A stretch of DNA of 64,000 nucleotides from Skermania piniformis. GTDB taxonomy: Bacteria; Actinomycetota; Actinomycetes; Mycobacteriales; Mycobacteriaceae. Location of the stretch: positions 2,914,001 to 2,978,000 of the forward strand of contig NZ_CP079105.1 of the NCBI RefSeq assembly GCF_019285775.1, read 5' to 3'. Both the position numbers and the translations under genes were made by a program. Of the stretch, positions 277-57,293 are shown one piece after another. Position 1 is the first letter of the stretch. Each line of letters begins with the position of its first letter. The notes beneath the pieces are model-generated. The model worked only from the letters and a program-made list of their open reading frames with translations. It did not search any database and had not been told where the DNA came from.

Positions 277-1373
277 GCCGCGAGATCATCGCCGCGGTCG
301 CACGCGGCGCGGCTGAGCCGTTCACCATCGAGCGGCTCACCCTGGCCACGCCGCGTGCCGGCGAAGTGGTCGTCCGGCTGGTCGCCTCGGGGATCTGTCA
401 ATCCGACCTCACCGCAAAGCACAACTTCCCGGCCGAGCTCCCGATCGTGCTCGGTCACGAGACAGCTGGCGTCGTCGAGCAGCTCGGCAGCGAAGTCACC
501 GGCATCGAAGTCGGCGACCACGTTCTGGTGACCTACGCCAGCTGCGGCAACTGCCGGCGGTGCGACGCGGGCCTACCCGGCTATTGCGACCACTGGGTGC
601 GGCTCAATGGGGGCCGCTACGGAGCCAACTCGCCACTGACCACGACGGACGGACAGCCGGTGGTGGGCGGGTTCTTCGGGCAATCGAGCTTCGCGACCCA
701 TCTGGTTGCCAGCGCACGAAGTGTCGTAGTGGTGGACCAGGACCTCGATCTGACACTGATCGCCGCATTCGGCTGCGGAGTACAGACCGGCGCCGGCGCC
801 GTGGTCAACGTGCTCCAGCCGGAGTCGGACTCCGCCGTAGCGATCTTCGGGGTCGGTGGGGTGGGAATATCGGCGGTGATGGCGGCGCGAGCACTCGGCG
901 TCAGCACCGTGATCGCCGTCGATCTCTCCGCCGACCGGCTGCACGTCGCCGGTGAACTCGGCGCAACGACACTGATCGACGGCGCGGCCGATGATGTCGC
1001 GACGCAGATCCGCGCCGCGACCGGGGACGGTACGACGCATGCGCTGGATACCACCGGCATCGATACGGTCGTCGCGACCGCCATCGAATCGCTTGCCCCA
1101 CGAGGCACGTTGGCCGTCGTCGGCCTCGGCGAACCGGTCATCCCGATCGAAGTCGCCAAGCTGATTGGGCTCGGCAAGACGGTGCGTGGATCGATCGAGG
1201 GCGATGCCGATCCACACCGGTTCCTGCCCCAACTCATCGACTGGTACCGCACCGGCAAGCTGCCGATGGATCGGATCATCCGGCGGTATCCGCTCGAAGC
1301 GATCAATGCCGCGGTCGCTGACTGCGCTCGCGGCGAGGTGATCAAATCGGTTCTCACCTTCGCAGAGCTGTAG
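273..1373 (+). CDS. Zinc-dependent (aryl/benzyl-type) alcohol dehydrogenase
   Basis: A 366-residue medium-chain dehydrogenase. Catalytic zinc ligands are visible as Cys42 (GICQSD), His62-Glu63 (LGHETAG) and the later FGCGVQTG cysteine. The structural zinc site is Cys91, Cys94, Cys97 and Cys105. The NAD-binding turn is GVGGVG near residue 200. The FGCGVQTGAGAV segment is typical of the aryl-alcohol/XylB-like branch, which oxidises primary or benzylic alcohols to aldehydes. The ATG at 273 overlaps the upstream stop; longer in-frame extension to 156 is rejected because it runs through the upstream gene. An aldehyde dehydrogenase follows at 2022-3518 on the other strand. Substrate unknown. Confidence 0.85.
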   Translation: MSREIIAAVARGAAEPFTIERLTLATPRAGEVVVRLVASGICQSDLTAKHNFPAELPIVLGHETAGVVEQLGSEVTGIEVGDHVLVTYASCGNCRRCDAGLPGYCDHWVRLNGGRYGANSPLTTTDGQPVVGGFFGQSSFATHLVASARSVVVVDQDLDLTLIAAFGCGVQTGAGAVVNVLQPESDSAVAIFGVGGVGISAVMAARALGVSTVIAVDLSADRLHVAGELGATTLIDGAADDVATQIRAATGDGTTHALDTTGIDTVVATAIESLAPRGTLAVVGLGEPVIPIEVAKLIGLGKTVRGSIEGDADPHRFLPQLIDWYRTGKLPMDRIIRRYPLEAINAAVADCARGEVIKSVLTFAEL

Positions 1374-1398
1374 TCTCCCTTGATGAGACAAGCGACAA

Positions 1399-2049
1399 GT
1401 GCGTAGTCACGGCTGGTCCGGCCATACCCCGTCGTCGGATGAGGAGGCGATCGAGCGAATCCTCGATGCGGCCGAGCAACTCCTCGACGAGTCCGGTGCC
1501 GCGATGCGGATCGCCGACGTGGCCCGGGCTGTCGGGGTCACCCGCCAGACGGTCTACCGCTACTTTCCCAGCACCGAGTCGCTGCGTATGGCCACTGTGT
1601 TGCGTTCCGCCGATGGCTTTCTCGATCAGATGGCGAACCGATTGGCCGGCGAAACGAACCCGGTTGCGGCACTCACCGGCGGACTCGCCTTCACTATCGA
1701 GACCCTCGGCGCAGACAACCAACTCGAGCTGCTGCTGCGGGGGCATTCCGCCGACGCGCACTCGCTGTCGCTCACCTCCGACACCGCGCTCAGCTTCGCC
1801 CGGGCCATGCTGCACCGTGTCGGTGTGGACTGGGCCCGATATGGTTTCGACGACGCCGCGCTCGACGAGTTGGCCGAGTTCAGCCTCCGAATTCTGCACT
1901 CGTTCATCACCGATCCTGGCGAGCCGGCACGGCGTGGCGCGGAGCTACGACGATTCCTCACCCGCTGGGTCGGGCCGGCGATCACCTACCCGGTCATGGC
2001 CGACGCGCTGAGCTCGCTGAGTCAGGACACAGTCGCGGACTCGGCCTGA
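1399..2049 (+). CDS. TetR/AcrR family transcriptional regulator
   Basis: A 216-residue protein with an N-terminal TetR helix-turn-helix (residues about 20-65; IADVARAVGVTRQTVYRYFPS) and a divergent alpha-helical ligand domain. The start is a GTG 25 bases after the alcohol dehydrogenase stop, so it may be co-transcribed and respond to that pathway's substrate. Its last 28 bases overlap the 3' end of the convergent aldehyde dehydrogenase gene, so both genes share coding DNA on opposite strands. Ligand and operator are unknown. Confidence 0.85.
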   Translation: MRSHGWSGHTPSSDEEAIERILDAAEQLLDESGAAMRIADVARAVGVTRQTVYRYFPSTESLRMATVLRSADGFLDQMANRLAGETNPVAALTGGLAFTIETLGADNQLELLLRGHSADAHSLSLTSDTALSFARAMLHRVGVDWARYGFDDAALDELAEFSLRILHSFITDPGEPARRGAELRRFLTRWVGPAITYPVMADALSSLSQDTVADSA

Positions 2050-3518
2050 TCCGACTCGACGCCGAACGGCAGCATCACGCTCTTCGACTGGCAGTAGGCG
2101 TCGATTCCCTCGTACCCGTTCTCCCGTCCGATCCCGGAGTTCTTGTATCCGCCGAACGGCGCCGCGGGATCGAAGGCGTACATGTTGATCGCGAGCGTCC
2201 CCGTCCGGACCCGGGCCGCTACAGCCATCGCCCGGTCGTTGTCGGTGGTCCAGACGCTGCCACCCAGGCCGTAGCCGGAGTCGTTGGCGATCCGGACAGC
2301 GTCGTCGTCGTTGGCATGACCGATGTCGTCATAGCCGATGACGCAGAGCACCGGACCGAAGATCTCCTCCTGAGCAATGGTCATCGCGTTGTCGACGTCG
2401 GCGAAGATCGTCGGTTCGACGAAGTAGCCATGCGCCAGGCCGGCAGGTCGGCCACCACCGCAGACCAACCGCGCTCCCTCGGCGATCCCCGTCGCGATGT
2501 AGCGCTCCACCCGGTCACGCTGGGCGGCCGAGATCAGCGGTCCGATCACGGTCGCCGGATCGTCCGGCACACCGACCGGCAACCCGGCGACGTAATCGGC
2601 AAGCCGCGAGACGATTTCGTCGTAGCGCGATCGAGGCGCCAGGATTCGAGTCTGCCCGACACACGCCTGGCCAGCGTTCATCAGGCCGGAGAACGCCAGC
2701 ATCGGCAGGACCGCGGCCAGGTCGACATCGTCCAGCAGAATCGCCGCCGACTTGCCGCCGAGTTCGAGCGTGCATGGCTTGATCCGGTCCGCGGCCAGCC
2801 GGCCGATCTCGCGGCCCACCGCCGTGCTGCCGGTGAAGCTGAACTTGTCCACCCGAAGGTCGGCGGTCAGCGCCCGGCCGGTCTCGGCGCCACCCGGCAC
2901 CACCGACAGCACCCCTTCCGGCAGACCGACATCGACAAACACCTGAGCCAATGCCTGTGCGGTCAAGGGTGTTTCAGCGGCCGGCTTGAGCACCGTGGTG
3001 CAGCCGGCGAGCAGCGCCGGCGCCAGCTTGTTCACCGCGGCGAAGAGCGGAATGTTCCACGGGACGATCGCGGCGACCACACCGATCGGCTCCCGGGTGA
3101 CCAGGACCCGGCCGTAGATCCCATCCCGGACCTCACGCCAGCCGAAGGTCTCGCCGGCGCCGGCGAAGAATCGCACGGCCGCGACCGCGCTGCCGAACTG
3201 CAACAGGTCGACGATTGCCGGCGGCTGACCGGTCTCCAGCGTGAGCAGGTGCTGGAACAGCTCGCTCCGCTCTTCGAGCAGCTGCCGGACCCGGTCCAGC
3301 AACGCCGCCCGCTCCGCCACCGGGACCGCTGGCCACGGGCCCTCGTCGAAAGCCGTCCGCGCCGCGGCGACCGCAGCCGCCACGTCGGCCGGGCCAGCGA
3401 GTGGAACGCTCCCCACCCGCGCTTCGGTCGCCGGCGAATGAACCTCGATCCGCTGCTGCGACGACGGTTCGACCCACCTCCCGCCGATGAACAGCGTGTC
3501 GTGATCGACGGTGATCAT
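2022..3518 (-). CDS. Aldehyde dehydrogenase (NAD(P)+), ALDH superfamily
   Basis: A 498-residue ALDH oxidising an aldehyde to a carboxylate. Visible motifs are the cofactor loop FTGSTAVG, the general-base region LELGGKS and the nucleophile in NAGQACVGQTR. Length is normal. The ATG at 3518 (MITVDHDTLFIGG) is preferred over an in-frame start at 3572, which would lie inside the upstream gene; it leaves 7 bases to the upstream stop. It forms one operon with the reductase at 3526 and the Rieske oxygenase at 4608. Probable role: oxidation of an aldehyde intermediate in the same catabolic route. Confidence 0.9.
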   Translation of the reverse strand: MITVDHDTLFIGGRWVEPSSQQRIEVHSPATEARVGSVPLAGPADVAAAVAAARTAFDEGPWPAVPVAERAALLDRVRQLLEERSELFQHLLTLETGQPPAIVDLLQFGSAVAAVRFFAGAGETFGWREVRDGIYGRVLVTREPIGVVAAIVPWNIPLFAAVNKLAPALLAGCTTVLKPAAETPLTAQALAQVFVDVGLPEGVLSVVPGGAETGRALTADLRVDKFSFTGSTAVGREIGRLAADRIKPCTLELGGKSAAILLDDVDLAAVLPMLAFSGLMNAGQACVGQTRILAPRSRYDEIVSRLADYVAGLPVGVPDDPATVIGPLISAAQRDRVERYIATGIAEGARLVCGGGRPAGLAHGYFVEPTIFADVDNAMTIAQEEIFGPVLCVIGYDDIGHANDDDAVRIANDSGYGLGGSVWTTDNDRAMAVAARVRTGTLAINMYAFDPAAPFGGYKNSGIGRENGYEGIDAYCQSKSVMLPFGVESDQAESATVS

Positions 3519-3525
3519 CGCGCGG

Positions 3526-4611
3526 TCAACGCTTGAACCGGCCGGCGAACGCCCGCAACGGCAGGTCCGCACTGGTCACGATGCCCGGCGGCGCCGCGAC
3601 CACCGCGCGAATCGAGTTCAGGGCCGGAAGTCCGGTGACGGTCATCCCGATCGACGCGAAGTTGGCCGGATCGGACAGGTCGAATCCCTTGCGCGGGAAG
3701 ATCATGTGCTTGCTGTAGATATTCGGGTCACCGGTGATCTGGGTGATGTAGCAGCCCTGGATCTTCCACGCCGGGTCGGTGTGTGGCGTCATCTGCCACT
3801 CCAGATGCGATTCCACTCTGGGCACGCCGTCGATCATGCCCTGGTACTTGATGTAGCTGCCGCCCAACGATCCCTTCGGCAACCGATACCAGCCCAGGTC
3901 GACATCCTCGGTGCAGGCGCCCAACTCGTAGTCGAAGCGCACGTCGTCGAGTTCCAGACCGAACGCGTCAGCCATCAGGTACACCGAGTCGGCGAAGACC
4001 GCGGTGAACTTGTAGAGCGAGTCCGGAATGCTTGGATCGTCGACGGGCAGGCCGTATCCGACGGCGCGCCAGGTGTCGACCGAATGGTGGCAGGAGACAT
4101 CGACCGACTCGGTCACCGTGACGTTCTCGATGTCGGCCACATCGGCGGAATGCACGATCCCGAGAATCTGGCAGAGCCCCGGGTTCATTCCGGTGCCGTA
4201 GAAGCTCGCCTGCCCCCGCTCGCATGCCGCGGCGATCACCTCGCTGACCTTGCGGCCGGACGGATGCGGGTGGTTGGTGTCGCGGTGGTAGCCGGTGATC
4301 CAATCCGCGGTGGTCACCACGTTGATCCCGGCTTCGAGCACCTGCTCGTAGAGCTGCTCGTCCGGAAACACCCCGTGGAAGGTGAGCACGTCGGGCCGGG
4401 CGTCGATGATCTCCTGGACCGTGCCGGTCGCGGTCACCCCGACCGGGCCGATCCCGACGATGTCGCCGGCGTCCCGACCCACCTTGTCCGGGGTGTAGCA
4501 GTGCAGCCCGGCCAGCTCCAGATCCGGATGATCGCGGATCCGCCCGATCATCTCGGTGCCGAGGTTGCCGGTGGCGACTTGGAAGACCCGGATCTTGTCG
4601 GACGTGCTCAT
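3526..4611 (-). CDS. DapB-like NAD(P)-dependent oxidoreductase (diaminopentanoate dehydrogenase-like)
   Basis: A 361-residue protein with an N-terminal Rossmann fold (VFQVATGNLGTEMIGRI) and the long C-terminal alpha/beta domain of the dihydrodipicolinate reductase/2,4-diaminopentanoate dehydrogenase superfamily. Actinobacterial catabolic clusters often carry this family without a known reaction. It is not a lysine-pathway DapB: the context is a Rieske oxygenase and an aldehyde dehydrogenase, and it is about 100 residues longer than DapB. ATG 4611 overlaps the Rieske stop by 4 bases (ATGA), which fixes the start. Function inferred only as reduction or oxidation of a pathway intermediate. Confidence 0.75.
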   Translation of the reverse strand: MSTSDKIRVFQVATGNLGTEMIGRIRDHPDLELAGLHCYTPDKVGRDAGDIVGIGPVGVTATGTVQEIIDARPDVLTFHGVFPDEQLYEQVLEAGINVVTTADWITGYHRDTNHPHPSGRKVSEVIAAACERGQASFYGTGMNPGLCQILGIVHSADVADIENVTVTESVDVSCHHSVDTWRAVGYGLPVDDPSIPDSLYKFTAVFADSVYLMADAFGLELDDVRFDYELGACTEDVDLGWYRLPKGSLGGSYIKYQGMIDGVPRVESHLEWQMTPHTDPAWKIQGCYITQITGDPNIYSKHMIFPRKGFDLSDPANFASIGMTVTGLPALNSIRAVVAAPPGIVTSADLPLRAFAGRFKR

Positions 4612-5603
4612 GATGTCGTGCCTTTCGCCGGATAGAACTGGGTTGCCCATTCGCGCAGCGCCCGAAATCCCTGGTATTCCTTGCGGGACAACGCGGGTGG
4701 GTCCGAGTAGCGCTGATGCGACCAGATGTGGACATCCGCCTCGAACTGCTCGATGACGAAGTCGGCCATCGTCTTGCCGTATCGGGAGATCTCCGGGCGA
4801 TCGTCACCGGGTTTGCGCCCGATCCAAACGGTGAACCGAACGTCACAGGTGCGGTCGTCGACCGGGGTGACCGCAGGCATCGTCCGGTTGTCCACCATTC
4901 CCCAGCTCCGAGTGATCGAGCAGCCCAGGCCAGCGTTGATCGACTCGACGCCGCTGCTCACGTCGTCCTCGGCCACGCCGGCATCGAAGGCGATGGTGAA
5001 ATCGACATACGACACCGGACCGGAGAAGTCGTGCCGGGTGAATTCGGGAACGAACGGGGTGTTGTGCACGAACTTGAAGTGCGCGAAATCGACCCCGTTC
5101 TCCATTACGTACTGCGGATGCAGCTCCAGCCCAGCTCGATACAGCGTCGCGACCGGCACGGGCGGGTAGTAGTCGGCGGCGGTCCGACTGTCCCCGAAGG
5201 CGGTGAACATGTCCGGCACCTCGAAATAGGGCGGCCGATCTGCCAGATCGAACCAGATCCACACCGCCTCGTTCCGCTCGACCACCGGATAGCTGCGAAT
5301 CCGTCGGCCCCGGTTGGGATGGTCCTCGTACGGGATGCAGACGTTGCGCCCCTGCGCGTTCCACTCCCAGCCATGGAATGGGCAGACCAGGTTCTCCCCC
5401 ACCACCCGTCCGCCGTAACCGAGGTGGGCGCCCAGATGTTCGCAGTAGGCGTCGAACACGCTGACCCGGCCGGCGGCCGATCGCCAGGCGACCATCTCCC
5501 GACCGAAATATGTCATTCGGTGTACCGCGCCGATCTGGATCTCGACCCCCCACGCCACCTGGAACCAGCCGGTCGGCTCCATGGACAGCGGCGGTTTGGC
5601 CAT
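4608..5603 (-). CDS. Rieske non-heme iron oxygenase, KshA-like oxygenase component
   Basis: A 331-residue protein with a Rieske [2Fe-2S] domain (Cys54-x-His56 ... Cys74-x2-His77) and a catalytic domain whose N169/D172/H175/H180 pattern matches the mononuclear iron motif of 3-ketosteroid-9-alpha-hydroxylase-type oxygenases. This family hydroxylates steroids and other alicyclic rings using electrons from a separate reductase; no reductase or ferredoxin gene is nearby. First gene of the operon with the DapB-like and ALDH genes. A second, diverged copy of the family is at 19000-19989. The KshA-like label is a family call; the substrate need not be a steroid. Confidence 0.85.
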   Translation of the reverse strand: MAKPPLSMEPTGWFQVAWGVEIQIGAVHRMTYFGREMVAWRSAAGRVSVFDAYCEHLGAHLGYGGRVVGENLVCPFHGWEWNAQGRNVCIPYEDHPNRGRRIRSYPVVERNEAVWIWFDLADRPPYFEVPDMFTAFGDSRTAADYYPPVPVATLYRAGLELHPQYVMENGVDFAHFKFVHNTPFVPEFTRHDFSGPVSYVDFTIAFDAGVAEDDVSSGVESINAGLGCSITRSWGMVDNRTMPAVTPVDDRTCDVRFTVWIGRKPGDDRPEISRYGKTMADFVIEQFEADVHIWSHQRYSDPPALSRKEYQGFRALREWATQFYPAKGTTS

Positions 5604-5645
5604 GGCCCCAGGGTAGAAGGCGGCTCGGACGAATACAAGAGGGTT

Positions 5646-5654
5646 GTTTGAAAC
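5646..5654. promoter_or_regulatory. Small palindrome in divergent gap (possible TetR operator)
   Basis: The 87-base gap between the Rieske oxygenase start and the divergent TetR gene contains GTTTGAAAC, a perfect inverted repeat with one central base, flanked by a GGTT/AACC pair. Its position between a catabolic operon and its neighbouring regulator is where a TetR operator is expected. Nine bases of symmetry is weak evidence alone. Confidence 0.3.
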
Positions 5655-5690
5655 CTGAGTCGGCCGAGGTCAGCGCCGTAGAATCGAGTC

Positions 5691-6308
5691 GTGACCATTG
5701 GGGAAGGCGACGGACGACGGGCAAACAAGCGTGGCCGTGCTTCGCGGGAGAGCATGCTTGAAGCCGCCATCGCATCGCTGTCCACCGGCGATCCGGCGGC
5801 GGTCTCCGGCAATCGCATCGCGCGCGACATCGGCGCGACCTGGGGCGTGGTCAAGTACCAGTTCGGCGACATCGACGGGTTGTGGGCGGCGGTGCTGCGG
5901 TACACCGCCGACAAGCGCGGCGACCTGCCGGCCGGGATCACGCCGGACGGCACCCTCGCCGAGCGGGTGACCGCACTGATCCAAACGATGGCGGTGGGCC
6001 TACGCCGGCCCGAATCATTGGCGATCGAGACGCTGCGCTCCGCACTCCCCCGTGAGCACGCCGAACTAGAACGAGACTACCCCCAGACCGCAGCCGAACT
6101 CGCCTCCTGGAAGCCGAACTGGGACCGCGCCTGCGAGCGGTTGTTCGCCGACCTGGATCTCGATCCGGACAAGGTGCGCAAGGTTGCCGCGCTGGTTCCG
6201 GCGGCGATGCGCGGCATAACCTCCGAGCGCACTCTGGGCACCTACGGCAATCTCGACGACGCGCTCGACGCCCTGATCGGTGGGATCGTCGCCTACCTGG
6301 CGAGCTGA
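5691..6308 (+). CDS. TetR family transcriptional regulator
   Basis: A 205-residue protein. The N-terminal helix-turn-helix region (ASRESMLEAAI ... GNRIARDIGATWGVVKYQFGD) is TetR-like, although the recognition helix is less canonical than in the other regulators here. The GTG at 5691 is 87 bases from the divergent Rieske operon, making that operon the likely target. It converges on the SDR gene at 6330 with a 21-base gap. Confidence 0.8.
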   Translation: MTIGEGDGRRANKRGRASRESMLEAAIASLSTGDPAAVSGNRIARDIGATWGVVKYQFGDIDGLWAAVLRYTADKRGDLPAGITPDGTLAERVTALIQTMAVGLRRPESLAIETLRSALPREHAELERDYPQTAAELASWKPNWDRACERLFADLDLDPDKVRKVAALVPAAMRGITSERTLGTYGNLDDALDALIGGIVAYLAS

Positions 6309-6329
6309 CCAGCCTGGGGTTCCGCGAAT

Positions 6330-7100
6330 CTACCGGGGCTGGAAGCGCTGCCCGCCGTCGATCCGAATCACCTCGCCGTTGATATACGGGTTTTCCAGTA
6401 GATGCTGGACCAACATCGCGTACTCGTCCGGCGTGCCGAGCCGCTTCGGGAACGGCACCGTCGAAGCGAACTTGGCCAACCGCTCCTCACCCAAGAAGTC
6501 CATGATCGGAGTGTGCATCGTGCCAGGCGCGATGCTGTTCACCCGAATCCCGACCGAACTCAGATCGCGGGCGGCGGTCAGAGTCAACCCGATCACGCCG
6601 CCTTTTGCCGCCGAGTAGGCCGCCTGGCCGATCTGCCCTTCGTACCCGGCGATACTGGAGGTCATCACCACCGCGCCGCGCTCGCCGTTACCGTCCGGCT
6701 CCAGCTGCGCGATCCGGGCAGCCACCAACCGCAACACATTGAACGTGCCGCTGAGGTAGAGCGCGATGGTGTCGGTGAAACCTTTCTGAGTGTGCGGCGA
6801 ACCGTCCCGGTTCACCACCTTCTCCAACACCCCGAAGCCGCCGTGCGATACCACCGCGTAACGCAGCGTGCCCAATTCGTCGGCTGCGGCGACTGCGGCC
6901 GCGACGCTCGACTCGTCGAGGACATCGGTACGCACGTAGACCGCCTTGTTGCCGAGTTCGTCGGCCAGCGCGCCGGCCTTCTCGTCGGCCACGTCCGCGA
7001 TCACCACCGCCGCGCCAGCACCGTGCAGCCGACGGACCGTCGCCGCACCCAGGCCCCCGGCGCCGCCGGTCACCAGCACCACATCACCTTCGAACGCCAT
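6330..7100 (-). CDS. Short-chain dehydrogenase, 3-hydroxyacyl-CoA dehydrogenase type 2-like
   Basis: A 256-residue classical SDR with the nucleotide loop TGGAGGLG near residue 12, the YSAAKGG catalytic Tyr/Lys pair and an ending in DGGQRFQPR. It is closest in pattern to HSD10-type 3-hydroxyacyl-CoA dehydrogenases, which oxidise the beta-hydroxyl of an acyl-CoA, and it follows a thiolase gene in the same direction, fitting the last two steps of a beta-oxidation round. A palindrome lies 23 bases upstream of the start, between the thiolase stop and this gene. Confidence 0.85.
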   Translation of the reverse strand: MAFEGDVVLVTGGAGGLGAATVRRLHGAGAAVVIADVADEKAGALADELGNKAVYVRTDVLDESSVAAAVAAADELGTLRYAVVSHGGFGVLEKVVNRDGSPHTQKGFTDTIALYLSGTFNVLRLVAARIAQLEPDGNGERGAVVMTSSIAGYEGQIGQAAYSAAKGGVIGLTLTAARDLSSVGIRVNSIAPGTMHTPIMDFLGEERLAKFASTVPFPKRLGTPDEYAMLVQHLLENPYINGEVIRIDGGQRFQPR

Positions 7101-7122
7101 CGTTTCCTTGATTCCGTTTGGA

Positions 7123-7136
7123 TGAAATATGTTTCA
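7123..7136. promoter_or_regulatory. 14-bp inverted repeat upstream of SDR, KstR-box-like
   Basis: TGAAATATGTTTCA lies between the thiolase stop and the SDR start on the minus strand. Its five-base arms pair perfectly. Compared with the published KstR consensus (TnnAACnnGTTnnA) it differs at one conserved position (AAT for AAC). This may be a binding site for a KstR-like or local TetR regulator; chance similarity is possible. Confidence 0.35.
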
Positions 7137-7149
7137 GATTCCTCAGCCG

Positions 7150-8325
7150 TCACACCTCGATGACCAAGGCCCCGCCCTGACCACCGCCGGCGCACATCGC
7201 GGCCACGCCGATTCCGCCACCCCGCCGCCGCAGCTCATAGATCAGCGTGGTCACCATCCGAGCGCCGGTTGCCGCGATCGGATGGCCCAGGCTGCAGCCA
7301 CTGCCGGAGAAGTTCACCAACTCCTCATCCAGGCCATGCGCCCGACTGGCCGCGATCGGCACCGCCGCGAACGCCTCGTTGATCTCCCACAACGCCACGT
7401 CGGCGGCCGCAAGCCCGGCCCGGTCCAACACCTTGCCGATTGCCGTACCGGCGGCCATCCCCGTCTCGACTGGGTCCACCCCGACATGCGCCCACGCGCG
7501 CACGGTGGCCAAGACGTCGAGCTCGGCGGACTCGGCGTAGTCCCGAGCGGCGAGCGCGACCGCGGCGCCGGCATCGTTGATTCCGCTGCTGTTGCCGGCC
7601 GTGATCGAAAAGCCGTCGATCTCCGGATGCAATACCGGCAGTTGCGCCAGCCGCTCGACGCTGGTGTCCCGCCGCGGGTGCTCGTCGACGACGAAGTCGA
7701 ACGCCGTACCGTCCGGGCGCTCCACCCGCAGCGGCACGATCTCGTCGACGAACTTGCCGGCATCGATTGCCGCGACAGCCCGGTGATGTGAGCGCGCCGC
7801 CCAGGCGTCCATCTCGGCGCGCTCGATTCCGGCCAGCCGGGCGGTATTCCAGCCGACCGTGACCGCCATATCCAGCATCGGCGCATCCGGCGTCTCCAGA
7901 TGGGTCGGCGGCAGCCACCCCTGCTGCACTTGGCCACCCGAACCCGGAATCCGCCAGTGGCTCACCGGATTCGTGGATAGCGCCTGGACGCCGCCGGCCA
8001 CGATCACCCGTTCCATCCCGACCCCGATATGCGCGGCGCCGTTCGCGATCGCGGTCAAACTGCCCGCGCAGTGCCGATTCACCGACTGCCCCGGCGCCGA
8101 GGTCATGTCGGTCGCAGCGGCGGCATACCGGGCGATGTCGCCCCCGCCGTAATGCGCCTCGGCCAGGATTACGTCGTCCACCGCGTCCGGCGCCAAGCCC
8201 GCGCGGCGTACCACCTCGGGCAACACCGTCACCGCGAACGCCTCGGCCGGCACGTCGGAAAGCGCGCCCTTGAACGATCGGCCGATCGCGGTCCGCACCG
8301 CGCCGACGATGACGGTTTCGGCCAT
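7150..8325 (-). CDS. Acetyl-CoA acetyltransferase-type thiolase
   Basis: A 391-residue thiolase that cleaves a 3-ketoacyl-CoA. Visible catalytic parts are the nucleophile Cys in NRHCAGS, NEAFA, the histidine motif CSLGHPIAATG and the C-terminal CAGGGQGG cysteine. The start at 8325 follows a GGAGTGG ribosome site; an in-frame extension to 8448 runs through the regulatory gap. Transcribed toward the SDR at 6330 and divergent from the TetR gene at 8507. Probably the terminal thiolytic step of a side-chain or ring-fragment degradation. Confidence 0.9.
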   Translation of the reverse strand: MAETVIVGAVRTAIGRSFKGALSDVPAEAFAVTVLPEVVRRAGLAPDAVDDVILAEAHYGGGDIARYAAAATDMTSAPGQSVNRHCAGSLTAIANGAAHIGVGMERVIVAGGVQALSTNPVSHWRIPGSGGQVQQGWLPPTHLETPDAPMLDMAVTVGWNTARLAGIERAEMDAWAARSHHRAVAAIDAGKFVDEIVPLRVERPDGTAFDFVVDEHPRRDTSVERLAQLPVLHPEIDGFSITAGNSSGINDAGAAVALAARDYAESAELDVLATVRAWAHVGVDPVETGMAAGTAIGKVLDRAGLAAADVALWEINEAFAAVPIAASRAHGLDEELVNFSGSGCSLGHPIAATGARMVTTLIYELRRRGGGIGVAAMCAGGGQGGALVIEV

Positions 8326-8506
8326 CTCTGCCACTCCTACGGTCGACCTCGCGGCGCGATCCCGCCGCCGAGAACAACAGTATCGTTTCTGCAATAGTAA
8401 TGCATACGGTAAATCTACCCAGAATTCGTTGACGACTGTCACTGGCATCTGTCAGTATCAGTTCTACTGGCTGCTACCAGCAGAAATAGGACTCGAAGGG
8501 CTTGTG
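8326..8506. promoter_or_regulatory. Divergent regulatory gap with several inverted and direct repeats
   Basis: This 181-base gap separates the thiolase from the TetR gene. It is visibly AT-richer than its surroundings. It holds CTGCTACCAGCAG (8471-8483, five-base arms), two CTGTCA direct repeats near 8436 and 8450, and TTACCGTAT on the minus strand (8404-8412), a 9-mer also present upstream of the CoA transferase at 17712. A TTGACG box at 8429 could be a -35 element for the TetR side. The exact operator and promoters are not resolved. Confidence 0.45.
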
Positions 8507-9115
8507 ATGAGCGATCTCGGTGCGGCACCGAAGGGTCGCGAGGCGCGGCGCAGAGAGACCCACCGGCGAGTCCTCGACGCGGCCACCGAGGAGTACCGCG
8601 CTCGCGGCATGGCCGACGCCGACCTGGGCGCGATCATCGCTGCCGCCGGCGTGGCGCGAGGCACCTTCTACTTCCACTTCCCGACCAAGGAGCACGTGCT
8701 GCTCGAGATCGAGGCCCGCGAGGAGAAGCTGATCGCCGAGGAACTGACTCGGTTTCTCGCCGAACCGCACGACCTACGCGACTCGCTCGCCGAGACGATC
8801 CGATCGATCGCCGCCATGGAAACCCGACTCGGCCGGCATCTGTTCAAAGACCTTCTTTCGGTGCACTTCTCGCCGACCCGACCGCTGACCGACGAGTGGC
8901 GTGCGCATCCGGTGATCGGCCTGGTCGCCGGGATGATCCGGGACGCGAACCGATCCGGCGAGGCGGAGACGATGATCGACCCATATCACAGCGCGGTGTT
9001 CTTCCTGTTCGGCCTCTACGGCCTGCTGGCGATCACCACCGGCGCCGCGGTACTGCGCGACACGGTGATCCGGGACTACCTGGACAGCACGCTACGCAGC
9101 CTGCAACCACGATGA
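8507..9115 (+). CDS. TetR/AcrR family transcriptional regulator
   Basis: A 202-residue regulator with a clear TetR helix-turn-helix (LGAIIAAAGVARGTFYFHFPTKEHVLLEIE, about residues 30-60). ATG 8507 is preferred; a GTG directly before it is in frame. It sits 30 bases upstream of the membrane-complex operon that begins at 9146 and is divergent from the thiolase, so it could control either or both. Ligand unknown. Confidence 0.85.
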   Translation: MSDLGAAPKGREARRRETHRRVLDAATEEYRARGMADADLGAIIAAAGVARGTFYFHFPTKEHVLLEIEAREEKLIAEELTRFLAEPHDLRDSLAETIRSIAAMETRLGRHLFKDLLSVHFSPTRPLTDEWRAHPVIGLVAGMIRDANRSGEAETMIDPYHSAVFFLFGLYGLLAITTGAAVLRDTVIRDYLDSTLRSLQPR

Positions 9116-9145
9116 CGACAAATCGGAAATACGAAGGAGAGCACC

Positions 9146-9244
9146 ATGTGGCAGGAGATCGTCCGTCTCGCGTTCGCCTGGGGAGTAATTCTTGCGGTAG
9201 TCGCGTTCTGGTACTGGATCATATCCAATATCGGCACATTCTGA
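9146..9244 (+). CDS. 32-residue single-helix membrane peptide
   Basis: ATG at 9146 follows AAGGAG by six bases, a strong ribosome site. The predicted peptide has a short polar start (MWQEIVR), one hydrophobic helix (about residues 8-28) rich in Trp and Val, and the tail SNIGTF. Its stop shares one base with the VWA gene's start (TGATG), so the pair is translationally coupled. Tiny one-helix subunits of this kind are known from respiratory oxidases and other membrane enzymes. No family recognised. A second, unrelated 39-residue membrane peptide sits in the same operon. Confidence 0.65.
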   Translation: MWQEIVRLAFAWGVILAVVAFWYWIISNIGTF

Positions 9245-10776
9245 TGACCAGCGGCGACAGCAACGACGCCATGTCGGTCGAACGCAGTTACGGGGTAACA
9301 GCGGTCGCGTTCTCCGGGCAACGACGCACCGGCGCCCGACTGATCACCGGTCCACGCCGAGAGTTCGGCCTGAGCCGGGCTCGTCGGGTCGTCGACGTGC
9401 CGTACCCGGTACTGGGTACGGACTGGCGCCGATCAACGGTGACCTGCGGCATCGCCTTGCAATGTGCGCCATCAAAGGACCTGATCGGCGAACACGACCT
9501 GCATGAGCTGGCGCCGAGGCAACTCGCCGCACTCTCGCTGGTCGAGGGCGGCGTCGCAGCCGGCTGGATCGCCGACCGACTGCCTGGCCTGCTGCCGGAG
9601 ATCACCCGCCTCGTCCCCCACCTGGAGATCGCCGACCAGGATCTTACCGGAGCTGAGATCATATCCCGAGCAATCGATCTCGCTCGGTCCAAAACTCCAC
9701 TAACCGGGCATCCGGTGCTCGGCGCACTCCCTCTGCGGGCACCGGCCCGGCGCCCGCTCGCTGCGGCGATCCACCGCACCTACAGCCGAATGCCCTGGAC
9801 ATCGGCTCGCTCGGACGCCAAACGAGCGATGTCGGTACCGGTCGGCGGTGATGGCGGGGTGCGCAACGCCAACCTTCCGCTGCCGAGCCGGCCGGAGAAC
9901 GACGAGCCCGAGATCCGCGCCGACCGGCGCGCCGGGATTCCTTACCCCGAGTGGAACATGTGGACCAAGGCGTTCCTCCCCAACCATGTCGCGGTACTCG
10001 AACGACGGCTCACCACGCAGAGTGGTCCGCTCGGTACAGTGCCACCTGAGATCGGCACCTGGTTCGCCCGAAACACCCACCGCGCGATGCGCAGCGGGCT
10101 TGAGGACGGCTCGGACGTCGACGTGGACCGCTATGTCGCGCACTACCTCGACACCATGACCGGCGAAGCCGGGCCACCACGGATATTCCGCGAGCTCCTT
10201 CCGGTCGCCCGGGACGTCGCCACCGCGGTCCTCCTGGACGGAAGTTCATCGCTCGGCGCACACCAAGGCCGGGCCTTCCAGATCGAGCTGGCCTGCGCCG
10301 GCGCGCTGTCTCGTGCCATGACGCTGACCGGCGAGCACCATGGCATCTTCGTCTTCTCCGGCAATACCCGACACCGGGTCGACGTCGCGTGCCTCAAGGA
10401 TTTCGCCGACCGCCGATTCGTCGATCCTGGTCACCAGGGCCTGCGCGCCGGCGGCTACACCCGGCTCGGCGCGCCGATCCGGCACCTGACCCGACGGCTG
10501 CTCGATCAGCCGGCCGAACGGCGGTTGCTGATCGTGATCGGCGACGGCCTGGTCTCCGACGAGGGCTACGAGGGCCGCTACGCGTGGGCGGACGTAGCGC
10601 ACGCGCTCGAGGAGGCTGAAGAGGCCGGCGTCTGCCTGTACTACATCGGGATCGGGCCCGTCCGGGTCGATCCACTGCCGGAGATCTTCGGCGACCGTCG
10701 ATCCCGCCGACTCCGCCGAGTCGACCAGCTAGCCGAAGTGCTGGCACTGATCCATCGAGAGCTGGTGGCCCGATGA
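9244..10776 (+). CDS. VWA-domain protein, NorD/CbbO type
   Basis: A 510-residue protein with an unassigned N-terminal region and a C-terminal von Willebrand A domain (about residues 320-500). The MIDAS metal site is visible as DGSSS, the threonine in GGYTRLG and GDGLVSDEGYEGRYA. The last segment closely follows NorD/CbbO proteins, which partner a NorQ/CbbQ AAA+ ATPase in maturing or remodelling an enzyme (nitric oxide reductase, Rubisco). The cognate ATPase gene overlaps its end by 4 bases. Neither NorB nor Rubisco is here, so the client is likely the membrane proteins downstream. Start ATG 9244 is fixed by coupling to the 32-residue peptide. Confidence 0.85.
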   Translation: MTSGDSNDAMSVERSYGVTAVAFSGQRRTGARLITGPRREFGLSRARRVVDVPYPVLGTDWRRSTVTCGIALQCAPSKDLIGEHDLHELAPRQLAALSLVEGGVAAGWIADRLPGLLPEITRLVPHLEIADQDLTGAEIISRAIDLARSKTPLTGHPVLGALPLRAPARRPLAAAIHRTYSRMPWTSARSDAKRAMSVPVGGDGGVRNANLPLPSRPENDEPEIRADRRAGIPYPEWNMWTKAFLPNHVAVLERRLTTQSGPLGTVPPEIGTWFARNTHRAMRSGLEDGSDVDVDRYVAHYLDTMTGEAGPPRIFRELLPVARDVATAVLLDGSSSLGAHQGRAFQIELACAGALSRAMTLTGEHHGIFVFSGNTRHRVDVACLKDFADRRFVDPGHQGLRAGGYTRLGAPIRHLTRRLLDQPAERRLLIVIGDGLVSDEGYEGRYAWADVAHALEEAEEAGVCLYYIGIGPVRVDPLPEIFGDRRSRRLRRVDQLAEVLALIHRELVAR

Positions 10777-11603
10777 CCTCGGTAACGAATGACGCCTACC
10801 TCGCCGCCGGCGCCGAGGTCGAGCTCTTCGAATGGGCCTACGCCCAACGCATGCCGATTATCCTCACCGGACCGACCGGCTGCGGCAAGACCCGATTCGT
10901 CGAGCACATGGGTCGGCGGCTCGGCCGCGACGTGGTCACGATCAGCTGCCACGACGACCTGACCAGCGCCGATCTCGTCGGCCGGTTCATGGTCACCGGC
11001 GGGGACGTGGTGTGGACCGACGGCCCGCTCACCAGCGCGGTGAAATCCGGAGCCATCTGCTACCTCGACGAGGTCGTCGAAGCTCGGCACGATTCGCTGG
11101 CGGTGTTGCACTCGCTCACCGATCACCGGCGTACCCTGTTCCTCGATCGAGCCGGCGAGACCGTGCACGCACCAACGACATTCATGCTGGCTTGCTCCTA
11201 CAACCCGGCATACCGAAGCTCCCTGAAGGAGCTCAAACCGTCGTTCCGGCAACGCTTCGTGACCGTCCCGATGGACTACCTGCCCGCCGATCGGGAAGCC
11301 GCCGTGGTGGTGGCCGAGTCCGGCGTCGACATCGCAGTTGCCCAGCGACTGGTGGCCTGTGCCAGAACCATCCGCGACGCCGACGACGTCTTCCATTTCG
11401 AGCCGCCGTCCACCCGGGTACTGGTCGCCGCCGCGCGGTTGATCGCCGCCGGTGCCACCGAACTGGTCGCGGTGCACGCCTGCGTACTGGCGCCGCTGAG
11501 CGGCGACGGCGCGATACACGATGGGCTGCGCGAGATCGCGGCTGCCCACTTTGAACCCACCTCGGATTCCCCGAGCCCACGGAGCAAGGCGGTCCGACCA
11601 TGA
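10773..11603 (+). CDS. AAA+ ATPase of the NorQ/CbbQ (MoxR) type
   Basis: A 276-residue MoxR-clade ATPase with Walker A GPTGCGKT near residue 32, Walker B AICYLDEV near residue 90, and the family's later signatures SYNPAY and LKPSFRQRFV. It would use ATP hydrolysis, together with the VWA protein, to remodel a client enzyme or insert a cofactor. ATGA overlaps on both sides tie it to the VWA gene and to the first five-helix membrane protein. In this family the client is usually encoded next to the chaperone pair. Confidence 0.9.
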   Translation: MTSVTNDAYLAAGAEVELFEWAYAQRMPIILTGPTGCGKTRFVEHMGRRLGRDVVTISCHDDLTSADLVGRFMVTGGDVVWTDGPLTSAVKSGAICYLDEVVEARHDSLAVLHSLTDHRRTLFLDRAGETVHAPTTFMLACSYNPAYRSSLKELKPSFRQRFVTVPMDYLPADREAAVVVAESGVDIAVAQRLVACARTIRDADDVFHFEPPSTRVLVAAARLIAAGATELVAVHACVLAPLSGDGAIHDGLREIAAAHFEPTSDSPSPRSKAVRP

Positions 11604-12292
11604 CCCGCACTCCGGCCTCGGGCCCGACCAGCTACGACCAGCACGAAGCAGACAGCCGTTCCGCGCAGGGCCGCGCGGACCGCTGGATGATCGCCGGGAC
11701 CGGGTTTATGGGCACCTACGTGCTCGGTCTGATCGGACTGCCGCTCTTCCTGCGCGGCGTCTGCCTACAACGCAAGGCACAACAGTCCGGCTATTCGGTC
11801 CGGCCGCTGATGGTCACCCTGATCGGTTATCTGGTCATTCTGGACGCGTTTCTGAACACGGTCGGCTGGGCGCTGGATCTGCTCGCCAGCCATTCGTTGT
11901 TGAACCGGGTCTTCTTCACCACCTGGGGAAACTACGCCGACAACGGGTACTTCTGGCACTACAACGAGCTCTGGATCGGCGGCTCGTCCGCACCCGGCGA
12001 GAAGGGTTGGGAGATCGCCTGCATCTTCGTGGTCTTCCCGATGCGGATCGCCGCCGCCATCGGGTTCCTGCAGATGAAACGATGGGGCCACCAATGGCTC
12101 ACCGTCACCTGCTGGTTCGGCGTGGTCATCTGGGTCGGCTACATCGCCAACATGACGATGTACGCCGACATCCGGTTTACCGGCACGCTCCTGCCGGTCT
12201 TCGGCTGGTGGCTGTACGACATCTTCTACATCACGCCGTTCTTGGCGATCCCCTACCTACACACGGTCAACCGCGAAATCTTCGCGGACTGA
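11600..12292 (+). CDS. Five-helix membrane protein, paralogue A (unknown function)
   Basis: A 230-residue integral membrane protein. A hydrophilic N-terminus of about 28 residues is followed by helices near residues 29-50, 66-90, 130-152, 163-185 and 195-218. A polar loop between helices 2 and 3 is rich in aromatic, acidic and histidine residues ([14 protein letters not shown], then EKGWE); other His residues lie in KRWGHQW and YLHTVNRE. These could bind a metal or substrate, but no family was recognised, and no PmoA, PmoC or oxidase signature was found. Coupled to the ATPase by ATGA. A near copy follows at 12464-13180. Confidence 0.75.
   Translation: MTRTPASGPTSYDQHEADSRSAQGRADRWMIAGTGFMGTYVLGLIGLPLFLRGVCLQRKAQQSGYSVRPLMVTLIGYLVILDAFLNTVGWALDLLASHSLLNRVFFTTWGNYADNGYFWHYNELWIGGSSAPGEKGWEIACIFVVFPMRIAAAIGFLQMKRWGHQWLTVTCWFGVVIWVGYIANMTMYADIRFTGTLLPVFGWWLYDIFYITPFLAIPYLHTVNREIFAD
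11881..12292 (+). repeat. Tandem duplicated segment, copy 1
   Basis: These 412 bases covering the 3' part of membrane paralogue A match 12769-13180 with about 22 mismatches counted by eye (roughly 95% identity) and no gaps; the offset is 888 bases. Upstream of this segment the genes diverge sharply, so the two genes have a conserved 3' half and a diverged 5' half. Confidence 0.85.
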
Positions 12293-12333
12293 TCATCGCT
12301 TCGCCCAGTTGCCCAGGTCCCCCGAGGAGAGCC

Positions 12334-12453
12334 ATGAACGAACAGGACCGCCGGCGCAAACGCGCCCTCATCGTCTTCCAGATAGCCATGTACGGATTCC
12401 TGCTGACGATGTTCCTGATCCAGGTCAACATGCTGATGCACCGAGACTGGTAG
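12334..12453 (+). CDS. 39-residue single-helix membrane peptide
   Basis: ATG 12334 follows GAGGAG. The peptide begins with a very basic stretch (MNEQDRRRKR), then one hydrophobic helix (about residues 12-33) and the tail MHRDW. The positive N-terminus predicts it stays in the cytoplasm. It lies between the two five-helix paralogues, 41 bases after one and 10 bases before the other. It is not similar to the 32-residue peptide at 9146. Probably a small structural subunit of the same membrane complex; this is inference from context. Confidence 0.65.
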   Translation: MNEQDRRRKRALIVFQIAMYGFLLTMFLIQVNMLMHRDW

Positions 12454-12463
12454 GTGAGCGACG

Positions 12464-13180
12464 ATGAACTTCCCGTTTCGGTCCACCTCGGACACCGCCG
12501 GATCGGCGGTCCGATCCGGCGCCGACCAACACGACCAGGCCAGCCGCGACGCGCAGCGTACCGCCGACCGATGGCTGATCAGTGGTACCGCTCTGATGGG
12601 CACGCTGGTGATCGGGTTCGTCGGCTTGCCGATGTTCCTGCGTGGTCTGTATCTGCAGCGTCGGGCGCAGCGGCAGGGTCTTTCAGTGCGCCCCATCATG
12701 GTCACGCTGATCGGCTATCTGGTCATCCTCGACGCGTTCCTGAACAGCATCGGCTGGGTCCTGGACCTGCTCGCCAGCCATTCGTTGTTGAACCGGGTGT
12801 TCTTCACCACGTGGGGAAACATGGTCGACAACGGATACTTCTGGCACTACAACGAACTGTGGATCGGCGGCTCGTCCGCACCCGGCGAGAAGGGTTGGGA
12901 GATCGCCTGCATCTTCGTGGTCTTCCCGATGCGGATCGCCGCCGCGATCGGATTCCTGCAGATGAAACGATGGGGCCACCAATGGCTCACCGTCACCTGC
13001 TGGTTCGGCGTGGTCATCTGGGTCGGCTACATCGCCAACATGACGATGTACGCCGACATCCGGTTCGACGCCACAGTGCTCCCGGTCTTCGGCTGGTGGC
13101 TGTACGACATCTTCTACATCACGCCGTTCTTGGCGATCCCCTACCTGCACACGGTCAATCGCGAGATCTTCGCGGACTGA
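12464..13180 (+). CDS. Five-helix membrane protein, paralogue B (unknown function)
   Basis: A 238-residue paralogue of the protein at 11600-12292 with the same helix plan. From about helix 2's end onward the two proteins are almost identical, including the [20 protein letters not shown] loop, KRWGHQW and the C-terminus NREIFAD. The N-terminal 60 residues differ clearly ([16 protein letters not shown] against MTRTPASGPTSYDQ). Two retained copies in one operon suggest a heteromeric complex rather than spare copies; alternatively a recent duplication still being homogenised. No recognised family. Confidence 0.75.
12769..13180 (+). repeat. Tandem duplicated segment, copy 2
   Basis: Copy 2 of the 412-base segment described for 11881-12292. 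The match ends exactly at the two stop codons. Differences cluster around the codons after TTWGN and in the last periplasmic or cytoplasmic loop ([10 protein letters not shown] against IRFTGTLLPV). Confidence 0.85.
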
Positions 13181-13206
13181 GCAGCACGCTCCAGGAGCAC
13201 ACCATC

Positions 13207-13632
13207 ATGAGCACATCCCCGCCCCGCCCCACCGCCGACAGCGGTGAGGAACTGCCGCTCGGCACCACCAGCCACTTCGCCCGGATGCACAGCTGGCTCA
13301 AACGCGGCATCCTGGTCTGTCTGGTCGTCCTCGTCGTCGAAGGATCGTTCACCGTTCCCGCGCTGGCGATCTGGTACGGCTTTCCCACACTGTCGCTCAC
13401 CGAGATCTGCGACGAGCTGATGAAGGTGCGCTGGTCGGACGAGACCGCCGAATGCGAGTACCCCTACCCATTACACGGCCCGCCGTTCGGCGGCCGGCCC
13501 GAGGGCGCCGGCCGAACCACCGCCCAGGACGAGTGGGGGGTCCAGCCCGAGCCGGAGTATCCGCGCATCGGCTTCCGGCAACTCGTCCGGAACAAGGAGG
13601 AACGCGAGGCCCGCCAGTCGGGCGGACGGTGA
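13207..13632 (+). CDS. 141-residue single-helix membrane protein (unknown function)
   Basis: The protein has a 32-residue polar N-terminus, one membrane helix (about residues 33-57) and a soluble tail with two cysteines (EICDEL and TAECEYPYP), followed by a proline/glycine-rich stretch and a charged end. It is the last gene of the membrane operon, 26 bases after paralogue B. A basic residue pair before the helix (WLKRG) suggests the N-terminus is cytoplasmic and the tail outside. No family recognised; probably an accessory or anchoring subunit. Confidence 0.65.
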
Positions 13633-18999: not shown

Positions 19000-19989
19000 T
19001 CAGGCTGGTATGTCGTAGAACTGGGTGGCCCACTTCCGCAACGACAGGTAGGGCTTGGCGTCCTGCGCGGACAGCGCCGGATGTTCGACGTAGCGCTGGT
19101 AGCGCCAAATGCTCAGGTCGTCCCAAACGGTGATCAGGTACTGCTTCTCGACCCGCTGCCGAACCTCCGGCGGGGGCACGTCGGAGTCGTCGCCGGGCAG
19201 TTTGGGCCACCAGATGGAATAGAACAGGTCCGAGCTCTCGTCGTCGACCGGGGTGCAGGCGAAGATCAGCCGATGCCGGGCCGAGCCCTCGAACGCACTG
19301 ATCGAACCCCCCAAGCCGAACATCTGCGCGTGAATCCGCAGCGCCATCGCGTCCGGGTCGTCGCTGCGCACGTCCGGCCAGCCGGTCAAGAAGTTCCAGG
19401 TGTGTTCGGCAACATGCCAATCGAGCATCCGTGGCGTCACGGTGGCTCGATGCACGTACCGGAAATGTGCGCTGTCCGGACCGTTCTCCAGGACCACCTG
19501 CGGATGTACCGGTTCCCGCTCGGCCTTCCGGGAGAACTCCGGGTACGGCCGATAGAACGCGGTCGGATCGGTTTGCAGGTCCGGGAACAGGCCGAGGATG
19601 TCGGGCATCGACCAGCTCGGCGGTCTACCGTCGGGCTGGTGCCACAGGAACACGCAGCCGTTCTGCTCCTGCACCGGATAGGAGCGCAGCGTGAGCACCT
19701 TGTTCACCCGATTCTCACCGGGAATGTGCTTGTTTCGGCCATCCGGCCCCCAGCGCCAACCGTGGAACGGGCATTCGACGCAATCACCGACGACCTTGCC
19801 ACCGTGGCCGATATGCGCGCCCAGATGCCGACAATGCCCGGTGAGCACATGCACGGCGCCGTCCGCGCCGCGGTAGGCCACGAGGTCCTCGCCGAAGTAG
19901 TGCAGCGGACGGACCTCGCCGGGCGGGAACTCGGCCGACCAACCGATCATGAACCAACCGGTGACCTTCCAGGTGAAGGGAACCTTCAT
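19000..19989 (-). CDS. Rieske non-heme iron oxygenase, KshA-like (second copy)
   Basis: A 329-residue oxygenase with Rieske ligands Cys53-x-His55 and Cys73-x2-His76 and the catalytic-iron pattern NGPDSAHFRYVH. It belongs to the same family as 4608-5603 but is strongly diverged outside the motifs, so probably has another substrate or position specificity. First gene of a run on the minus strand, 36 bases after the LLM gene's stop (20026). No reductase component is nearby. Confidence 0.85.
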   Translation of the reverse strand: MKVPFTWKVTGWFMIGWSAEFPPGEVRPLHYFGEDLVAYRGADGAVHVLTGHCRHLGAHIGHGGKVVGDCVECPFHGWRWGPDGRNKHIPGENRVNKVLTLRSYPVQEQNGCVFLWHQPDGRPPSWSMPDILGLFPDLQTDPTAFYRPYPEFSRKAEREPVHPQVVLENGPDSAHFRYVHRATVTPRMLDWHVAEHTWNFLTGWPDVRSDDPDAMALRIHAQMFGLGGSISAFEGSARHRLIFACTPVDDESSDLFYSIWWPKLPGDDSDVPPPEVRQRVEKQYLITVWDDLSIWRYQRYVEHPALSAQDAKPYLSLRKWATQFYDIPA

Positions 19990-55941: not shown

Positions 55942-55944
55942 GTC

Positions 55945-57279: not shown

Positions 57280-57293
57280 GCGCTTCGTCGGCG

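Follow-up and report, generated by a model that had tools for sequence, protein, structure and literature searches.

A NorQ/NorD-type chaperone pair and its probable five-helix membrane client in a catabolic region of Skermania piniformis

NorQ/NorD-type pairs are known for enzymes, and to our knowledge few of their clients have been proven. CbbQ/CbbO, of the same chaperone families as the pair described here, act on a soluble client, RuBisCO, which is remodelled and not known to receive metal; the presence of a NorQ/NorD-type pair (NorQD) therefore need not mean metal. For nitric oxide reductase (NOR), insertion of the non-haem iron requires NorQD (accessible portion of PMC13036017), and in Paracoccus substitutions of NorD T534/D562 or of the NorQ Walker B residue leave 2-4% of the NOR activity (accessible portion of PMC9976466). 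The operon from Skermania piniformis analysed here resembles the NorCB system of Paracoccus denitrificans in that its chaperones belong to the same families and keep their MIDAS and Walker motifs intact, and in that a putative membrane client is encoded next door. In contrast to that system it is without NorB or NorC, the client (M) has five helices, and NorD comprises 510 aa as compared with 69 kDa in Paracoccus (PMC13036017, same portion).

The window, i.e. the whole stretch of 64,000 nucleotides that was analysed, carries seven genes on the + strand, joined by overlaps or short gaps and located where the initial annotation had placed them (frames, start and stop codons checked). They encode S1, a single-helix protein of 32 aa ending in NIGTF (9146..9244); the NorD/CbbO-like VWA protein of 510 aa (9244..10776), whose start overlaps the S1 stop; the NorQ/CbbQ-like AAA+ ATPase of 276 aa (10773..11603); M-A, a membrane protein of 230 aa (11600..12292); S2, a single-helix protein of 39 aa (12334..12453); M-B, a membrane protein of 238 aa that is 82% identical to M-A (12464..13180); and S3, a protein of 141 aa with one helix, in whose C-terminal domain two cysteines are conserved (13207..13632). 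The five-helix plan proposed for the membrane proteins was recovered in M-B, with hydrophobic segments centred near residues 51, 88, 156, 184 and 214. Upstream, at 8507..9115 (+ strand), lies a gene for a TetR-family regulator (PF00440, E 6e-12); its ORF is listed from a TTG at 8270, and the ATG at 8507 is the better fit to the family match. For M-A, M-B, S1, S2 and S3 no Pfam family scored over its cut-off and no NCBIfam family was listed.

Both chaperone assignments made in the initial annotation are borne out by Pfam. NorQ, which falls into the NorQ/CbbQ group of MoxR AAA+ ATPases, matches AAA_5 (118.3 bits, cut-off 22; E 3e-34) and CbbQ_C (74.7 bits, cut-off 20.6; E 7e-21), and both its Walker A (GPTGCGKT, residue 33) and its Walker B motif (ICYLDEV, residue 95) are intact. 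NorD matches VWA (PF00092; 26.3 bits, cut-off 23.8) and contains a complete MIDAS (DxSxS-T-D), of which D332, S334, S336, T406 and D434 are invariant in 8 aligned homologues. The MIDAS T-to-D spacing of 28 equals that of T534-D562 in Paracoccus NorD (PMC9976466, accessible portion).

That the membrane proteins are the client of this pair, as originally proposed, is very probable: among 301 genomes of the family, the 31 that carry M are also the 31 that carry cassette-type NorD, with neither gene found there without the other (at most nine and five candidates per genome were scored in the two scans, and hits are possibly undercounted). We regard it as highly likely that NorQ and NorD serve a presumed physical complex of M with S1, S2 and S3. 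The expectation that membrane genes and chaperone genes go together in other genomes held at the genome level, in all 31 carriers and also in 32 of 33 genomes reached through loci in which cassette-type NorD was sought. The latter set comprises 31 genomes with S1-S2-M-S3 without adjacent NorQD plus 2 Pseudomonadales, and is not fully independent (the coordinates of G829 and G747 are identical). The expectation did not hold for adjacency: in 32 of 80 loci S1-S2-M-S3 stands without adjoining NorQD, nearly all of these genomes carrying NorQD elsewhere. The one exception is Mycobacterium gordonae CTRI 14-8773, where M is present and no cassette-type NorD was found; no NorD was found either on a Mycobacterium branderi plasmid with a distant M, the search covering the plasmid alone. 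Mycobacteria, nocardiae and gordoniae are among the carriers of the complex, the gene order S1-NorD-NorQ-S2-M-S3 is maintained from Gordonia to Pseudomonadales, and M, NorD and NorQ are adjacent in a distant actinobacterium (G179).

Two related core subunits, initially taken as the subunit plan, are not the general rule, since a single M stands beside NorQD in 27 of 80 loci (within the stretch examined). M-A and M-B were accordingly rejected as a fixed hetero-pair; they represent a local, lineage-specific duplication with gene conversion.

The three small proteins, in turn, proved to be real. A tblastn search of 80 loci from other genomes detected each of S1, S2 and S3 in 79, which argues against chance ORFs. 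The length of S1 is 32 aa in 75 of 79 loci and that of S2 39 aa in 51 of 79. In same-length loci, third codon positions differ most from the window for S1 (0.51 vs 0.27/0.18) as well as for S2 (0.42 vs 0.27/0.16), although among the changed codons nonsynonymous ones outnumber synonymous ones in S1 (948 vs 576) and S2 (620 vs 478). At least 97% conserved are R7, W12, F21, Y23, W24, T31 and F32 of S1, ten positions of S2, and E45, C68 and C83 of S3. A sequence search of solved structures with S3 was empty or returned chance matches only.

Our preferred reading, to which we assign a probability of roughly one half, is that the operon encodes a membrane complex together with its own NorQ/NorD machine, and that this complex is a metal-dependent enzyme acting on a hydrophobic substrate. 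M, present in two copies in the window, would form one membrane complex with S1, S2 and S3. If the pair works here as it does on nitric oxide reductase, NorD, driven by NorQ, would open an intermediate in the assembly of M, and a metal ion, most likely iron, could then be inserted there. On this analogy, insertion of metal into the complex by NorQD is somewhat favoured. Once mature, the complex would act on a hydrophobic compound within a catabolic pathway. Its most likely role is that of an oxidoreductase, e.g. a hydroxylase, whose active site may consist of acidic and polar residues that are invariant and lie at one membrane face. Its class as an oxygenase or oxidase can be put forward only tentatively, and our analysis points to a role in degrading fatty or steroid-like compounds. 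The catabolic setting itself, as first described, is supported by neighbouring genes of Rieske KshA-type, P450, aldehyde dehydrogenase, thiolase, acyl-CoA dehydrogenase and CoA-ligase. The M complex may be a new enzyme for the attack on hydrophobic compounds.

Within 77 aligned rows of M, 33 columns are invariant, among them (M-B numbering) D35, D90, N94, D101, D122, N130, E142, K143, R157 and R200; 31 of 104 M proteins were left out of the model alignment as at least 97% identical or longer than 260 aa. Many of the invariant residues are charged and lie within or at the edge of the membrane, and the acidic ones probably cluster at one membrane face. There is no invariant histidine in the 77 rows, and M-B contains neither H-x3-H nor H-x2-H-H, the histidine boxes of AlkB and fatty acid desaturases. 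AMO/AmoC, the Pfam families of copper membrane monooxygenase (pMMO/AMO), are absent from the 11 Pfam families listed for the 77 rows at E <=10, no oxygenase or metalloenzyme family of Pfam or NCBIfam was matched, and no haem-copper oxidase match was seen in the 77 rows. In agreement with the initial annotation, the membrane pair has no clear homology to a known transporter or enzyme in Pfam, NCBIfam, solved structures or Foldseek. Membership of M in a known family was rejected, all searches being empty or at chance level save for a sub-threshold EXPERA match. Sequence searches of solved structures with M-A and the M profile were empty or returned chance matches, the G179 M gave one chance match (E 0.16), and Foldseek of the single-chain M-B model (pLDDT 74, pTM 0.70) on PDB found nothing below E 3.4.

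The fold of M, as modelled, leans weakly towards the EXPERA superfamily (EBP sterol isomerase, TMEM97, TM6SF2), and M may then be a bacterial EXPERA-like protein that works without metal on substrates resembling sterols or terpenes, as an isomerase, a hydratase or a binding protein. NorQ and NorD would in that case insert no metal; they would remodel M, in the way CbbQ/CbbO remodel RuBisCO, to assemble it or to release a trapped ligand. Like EBP, M has five helices, and among solved structures the M-B model aligns best with human EBP (Z 9.6; rmsd 4.0 over 146 residues). For helical proteins, however, Z values under about 13 are not informative; NACHO/TMEM35A (Z 8.7) counts as a tie with EBP under the rule of the tool, and unrelated helical proteins follow at 8.6 to 8.2. 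The G179 homologue matches PF05241 (EXPERA) with E 0.0013, yet its 19.5 bits remain below the Pfam cut-off of 25.7; the window's M-A and M-B show no PF05241 match at E <=1, just 3 of 77 rows show any EXPERA match at E <=10, and G179 was the only match among 9 rows scanned singly. The accessible portion of PMC4263179 gives EBP 80 and 108 as the superfamily-wide acidic positions, of which D90 and D122, invariant in 77/77 rows, are by our own reading plausible counterparts in M. The steroid-type genes nearby fit an EXPERA-like M as well, and the lack of an invariant histidine and of any metalloenzyme family match counts against a metal enzyme. Unlike EXPERA proteins, M is accompanied by small partner proteins and chaperones. 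All in all we hold a metal-independent EXPERA-like M to be unlikely.

Less likely still is that the complex moves a hydrophobic compound as a transporter or channel and needs NorQ/NorD for its assembly. A multi-helix protein with small single-helix partners in a catabolic operon with a TetR gene would suit such a role, but no transporter family scored over cut-off for M, pairs of this type are known for enzymes, and the many invariant charged residues in the membrane and at its edge also speak against it. That NorQ and NorD serve some other protein and only accompany the membrane genes could be argued from the 32 loci without adjoining NorQD. We consider this very improbable in view of NorD and NorQ sitting between S1 and S2 inside the cassette, of the overlapping genes in the window and of the perfect co-occurrence in 301 genomes. 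Outside the cassette, moreover, the genes that most often neighbour it fall into a TetR cluster (45 of 85 loci) and an amidohydrolase cluster (24), according to crude ORF calls that recovered NorQ itself in only 26.

Besides the proposed metal-dependent M complex, AveC_like proteins (PF17198) are a candidate second client family for NorQ/NorD. Like M they are multi-helix membrane proteins with a nearby NorD, and they differ in having no reliable sequence kinship to M. Of 52 divergent NorD matches in the 301 genomes, 50 have an AveC_like membrane protein within 6 kb (the 106 AveC_like matches include fragments), and in 12 of 22 stretches read the AveC_like gene has both NorQ and NorD nearby. 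Against the cassette NorD profile, the AveC-type NorD reaches 92-149 bits and the cassette type >500. In one genome (G722) a divergent NorD and NorQ adjoin RuBisCO, a known client and thus a positive control. Another divergent NorD (G380:C22) is without AveC_like within 6 kb; it is 64% identical to AveC-type NorD and adjoins just the last third of a NorQ, and is therefore perhaps a relic of an AveC-type cluster. The idea that M itself is a divergent AveC_like protein was also considered. None of the 77 M rows matched PF17198 at E <=10, and hhalign of M vs AveC_like was not significant (probabilities 4.7%, 0.3% and 11.5%; P 0.009, 0.22 and 0.003), with a suggestive profile layout in which the D..LN region is aligned. 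The AveC_like structure model had no useful structural neighbour (best Z 4.2). Nothing relevant was among the literature matches listed on NorQ/NorD with mycobacterial monooxygenases, AveC with NorQ/NorD or MoxR, or MoxR/VWA in catabolic clusters. In the accessible portion of PMC5819568 a spirocyclase AveC family protein serves as taxonomic marker only, with neither 'MoxR' nor 'VWA domain' occurring there, and 'nord' in that of PMC10973024 is an author's name. The M complex and AveC_like proteins are concrete candidate clients on which metal insertion can be tested against remodelling. A wider scenario, in which NorQ/NorD-type pairs are a general assembly machine for unrecognised actinobacterial catabolic membrane metalloenzymes with at least these two clients, M/S1/S2/S3 and AveC_like, and with M as a metalloenzyme on a scaffold like that of the sterol isomerase (EXPERA), seems doubtful to us.

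The regulator upstream of the cassette is also recurrent. In 40 of 79 loci S1 is preceded within 3 kb by a TetR gene of one cluster, which is on the same strand in 39 of them and within 75 bases in 29.

The operon at 9146-13632 comprises seven genes, as the initial annotation had recognized, all of them on the + strand. These encode S1 (32 aa), a NorD-like VWA protein (510 aa, Pfam VWA match) that retains a complete MIDAS, a NorQ-like ATPase (276 aa, AAA_5 and CbbQ_C matches), the membrane protein M-A (230 aa), S2 (39 aa), the second membrane protein M-B (238 aa, five hydrophobic segments) and S3 (141 aa). No above-cut-off match to Pfam or NCBIfam was obtained for M-A, M-B, S1, S2 or S3.

Our analysis strongly supports the initial proposal that NorQ and NorD serve the membrane complex as their client. 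Within Mycobacteriaceae (301 genomes), M, the five-helix membrane protein, was found in 31 genomes and cassette-type NorD (>500 bits against the cassette profile) likewise in 31; the two sets of carriers are identical, and no genome harbors only one of the two. A second set of 33 genomes was reached via loci (two from Pseudomonadales, the other 31 drawn from the 32 of S1-S2-M-S3 type) and overlaps with the first (G829 and G747 have identical coordinates). Here cassette-type NorD was identified in 32 of 33 genomes, in two of them twice. The exception, M. gordonae CTRI 14-8773 (G847), has one M, and the only NorD found is of a divergent kind. Such co-occurrence is the pattern expected for a chaperone and its client. 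The question of the initial annotation, whether both always occur together, can be affirmed for the 301-genome set, but not for G847, and NorQ/NorD do not adjoin M in 32 of 80 loci.

For these loci, bacterial genomes were scanned with M-B and the best 80 of 333 relatives were analyzed; S1, S2 and S3 are each present in 79 of the 80. Arrangements were counted on stretches of mostly ~20 kb, some shorter, in which genes farther out are invisible. S1-S2-M-S3 alone was seen in 32 loci and S1-NorD-NorQ-S2-M-S3 in 27 (in one of these the NorD match is split, and another is flanked by a second, divergent NorQ/NorD pair), while an additional M precedes the latter cassette in 14 (one of these also with a second NorQ/NorD pair) or lies in divergent orientation in three. 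M flanks S2 on both sides, like in the window, in two loci, both from Gordonia; one locus shows another gene order and one, on a contig of 6.6 kb (L064), M only. Since 32 of the 33 genomes, nearly all reached via S1-S2-M-S3 loci, have cassette-type NorD, one NorQ/NorD pair could serve extra copies of the membrane set in trans. Two of the 80 loci derive from Pseudomonadales MAGs. Among 396 genomes drawn from the phylum, M was present in nine, eight from the window's family and one from another class (G179), the only carrier among 149 genomes of that class. In G179 an M with 39% identity is followed by NorD and NorQ; the match of an S1-like ORF is weak (E 0.001), and an ORF resembling S3 was recognized by eye only. 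An 864-kb plasmid of Mycobacterium branderi carries a remote relative of M (34%; L110, 13609-14702) that is adjoined by two small hydrophobic ORFs, with no NorQ/NorD in its vicinity and no NorD anywhere on the plasmid.

The plan of two related core subunits, as initially suggested, holds for the window's lineage, but not in general. M-A and M-B fall into one supported tree group with Gordonia sequences (7 rows, support 99/97), and Nocardia loci of S1-NorD-NorQ-S2-M-S3 order carry a single M, which makes the double arrangement a lineage trait. Other loci, chiefly mycobacterial, have a second M copy that groups apart in the tree. When the last 220 codons of M-A and M-B (11600-13180) are compared at the DNA level, identity is 57-68% in the first 60 and 87-100% in the remainder, a step that indicates gene conversion between them.

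Most surprisingly, two membrane families with no apparent relationship are each accompanied by a NorQ/NorD pair of their own. A second NorQ/NorD pair adjoins the M cassette in M. asiaticum (L072), where its neighbor matches Pfam AveC_like (PF17198), and another lies at one end of the Pseudomonadales locus L083. The 301 genomes contain 52 NorD matches of the divergent kind (92-134 bits), and for 50 of these an AveC_like gene lies within 6 kb (e.g. L159, G000:C1:1863469-1866762). The converse fails, as divergent NorD is within 6 kb of only 55 of 106 AveC_like matches; of 22 AveC_like stretches examined, 12 showed NorQ as well as NorD. RuBisCO is a known client of a NorQ/NorD-type pair, and one divergent pair not associated with AveC_like provides a positive control for the survey: in L191 (G722:C504, 3488-8007) a RuBisCO large subunit is followed by NorQ (5000-5716) and NorD matches. 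In the other case, L190 (G380:C22:126000-144000, 7595-9573), an AveC-type NorD (64%) adjoins a NorQ of which just the final third is present; neither AveC_like nor M is encoded nearby, and the site is perhaps a relic. In the genome from which the window derives, the two systems coexist, with three NorQ-like matches: that of the cassette, one adjoining AveC_like and one weak. Profile comparison did not establish kinship between M and AveC_like, a structure model of AveC_like gave no useful structural match, and no literature link between AveC_like proteins and NorQ/NorD was found.

NorQ/NorD are described as required for non-haem iron insertion into nitric oxide reductase, with a proposed mechanism in which NorQ twists and stretches the NorD linker (PMC13036017); changes in the MIDAS or Walker B motif are reported to leave 2-4% of NOR activity (PMC9976466). 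By analogy, NorQ/NorD would most likely open M during assembly and admit a metal. Across 77 M rows, two distant ones included, 33 columns are invariant, among others D35, D90, N94, D101, D122, N130, E142, K143, R157 and R200; H106 and D198 are each conserved in 76 of 77. A likely site is suggested by D101, H106, D122, N130, E142, K143, D198 and R200, which in the five-helix reading, with helix limits taken from the M-B model, would be located within or next to two loops that share one face of the membrane. Conserved in S3 are E45 in a helix and C68 and C83 in the C-terminal part.

The main rival scenario casts M as EXPERA-like, either an isomerase or a binding protein, with remodelling but no metal involved. 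The M profile found no sequence match among solved structures, and the M-B model (pLDDT 74, pTM 0.70) no significant Foldseek match. A further structure comparison placed human EBP, the sterol isomerase of the EXPERA family, first (Z 9.6, rmsd 4.0, 146 residues), tied with NACHO/TMEM35A (Z 8.7), with unrelated helical proteins ranking close behind and such Z values being common among helical proteins. The G179 homologue matches EXPERA (PF05241) at E 0.0013, under the Pfam cut-off, and EXPERA has the best E-value of 11 weak families listed for the 77 M rows, with three rows matched. Acidic positions 80 and 108 of EBP are reported as conserved across the EXPERA superfamily (PMC4263179), and in our reading D90 and D122 of M could correspond to them. 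PF05241 has been reported from Mycobacterium, Mycolicibacterium, Microbacterium and Nocardia in a survey of actinobacterial genomes (PMC9903846). Our own search of 149 genomes gave two sub-threshold PF05241 matches, neither of them an M locus.

An oxidase or oxygenase, as the initial annotation proposed, is a possible reading; the mature complex might be a hydroxylase or other oxidoreductase, a guess from its setting and the chaperone type. The catabolic setting, already suggested by the initial annotation, is borne out. Two KshA-type Rieske oxygenases (hydroxylases) lie within 16 kb, at 4608-5603 and 19000-19989 (-), and the ~8 kb on either side of the operon hold these together with a P450, two aldehyde dehydrogenases, an SDR, a thiolase and an APH/ecdysteroid-kinase-like gene. 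The KshA-type pair, the P450 and the kinase-like gene possibly mark a steroid or terpenoid gene region. Over 85 clustered loci, recurrent neighbor families include amidohydrolase (24), AMP-binding ligase (22), SDR (21), acyl-CoA dehydrogenase (20) and enoyl-CoA hydratase (17). The setting is the breakdown of lipid- or steroid-like compounds and points to no single substrate. Elsewhere in the window, at 54001-62000, G+C falls to 0.59-0.63 compared with 0.65-0.72 upstream, possibly reflecting acquired DNA.
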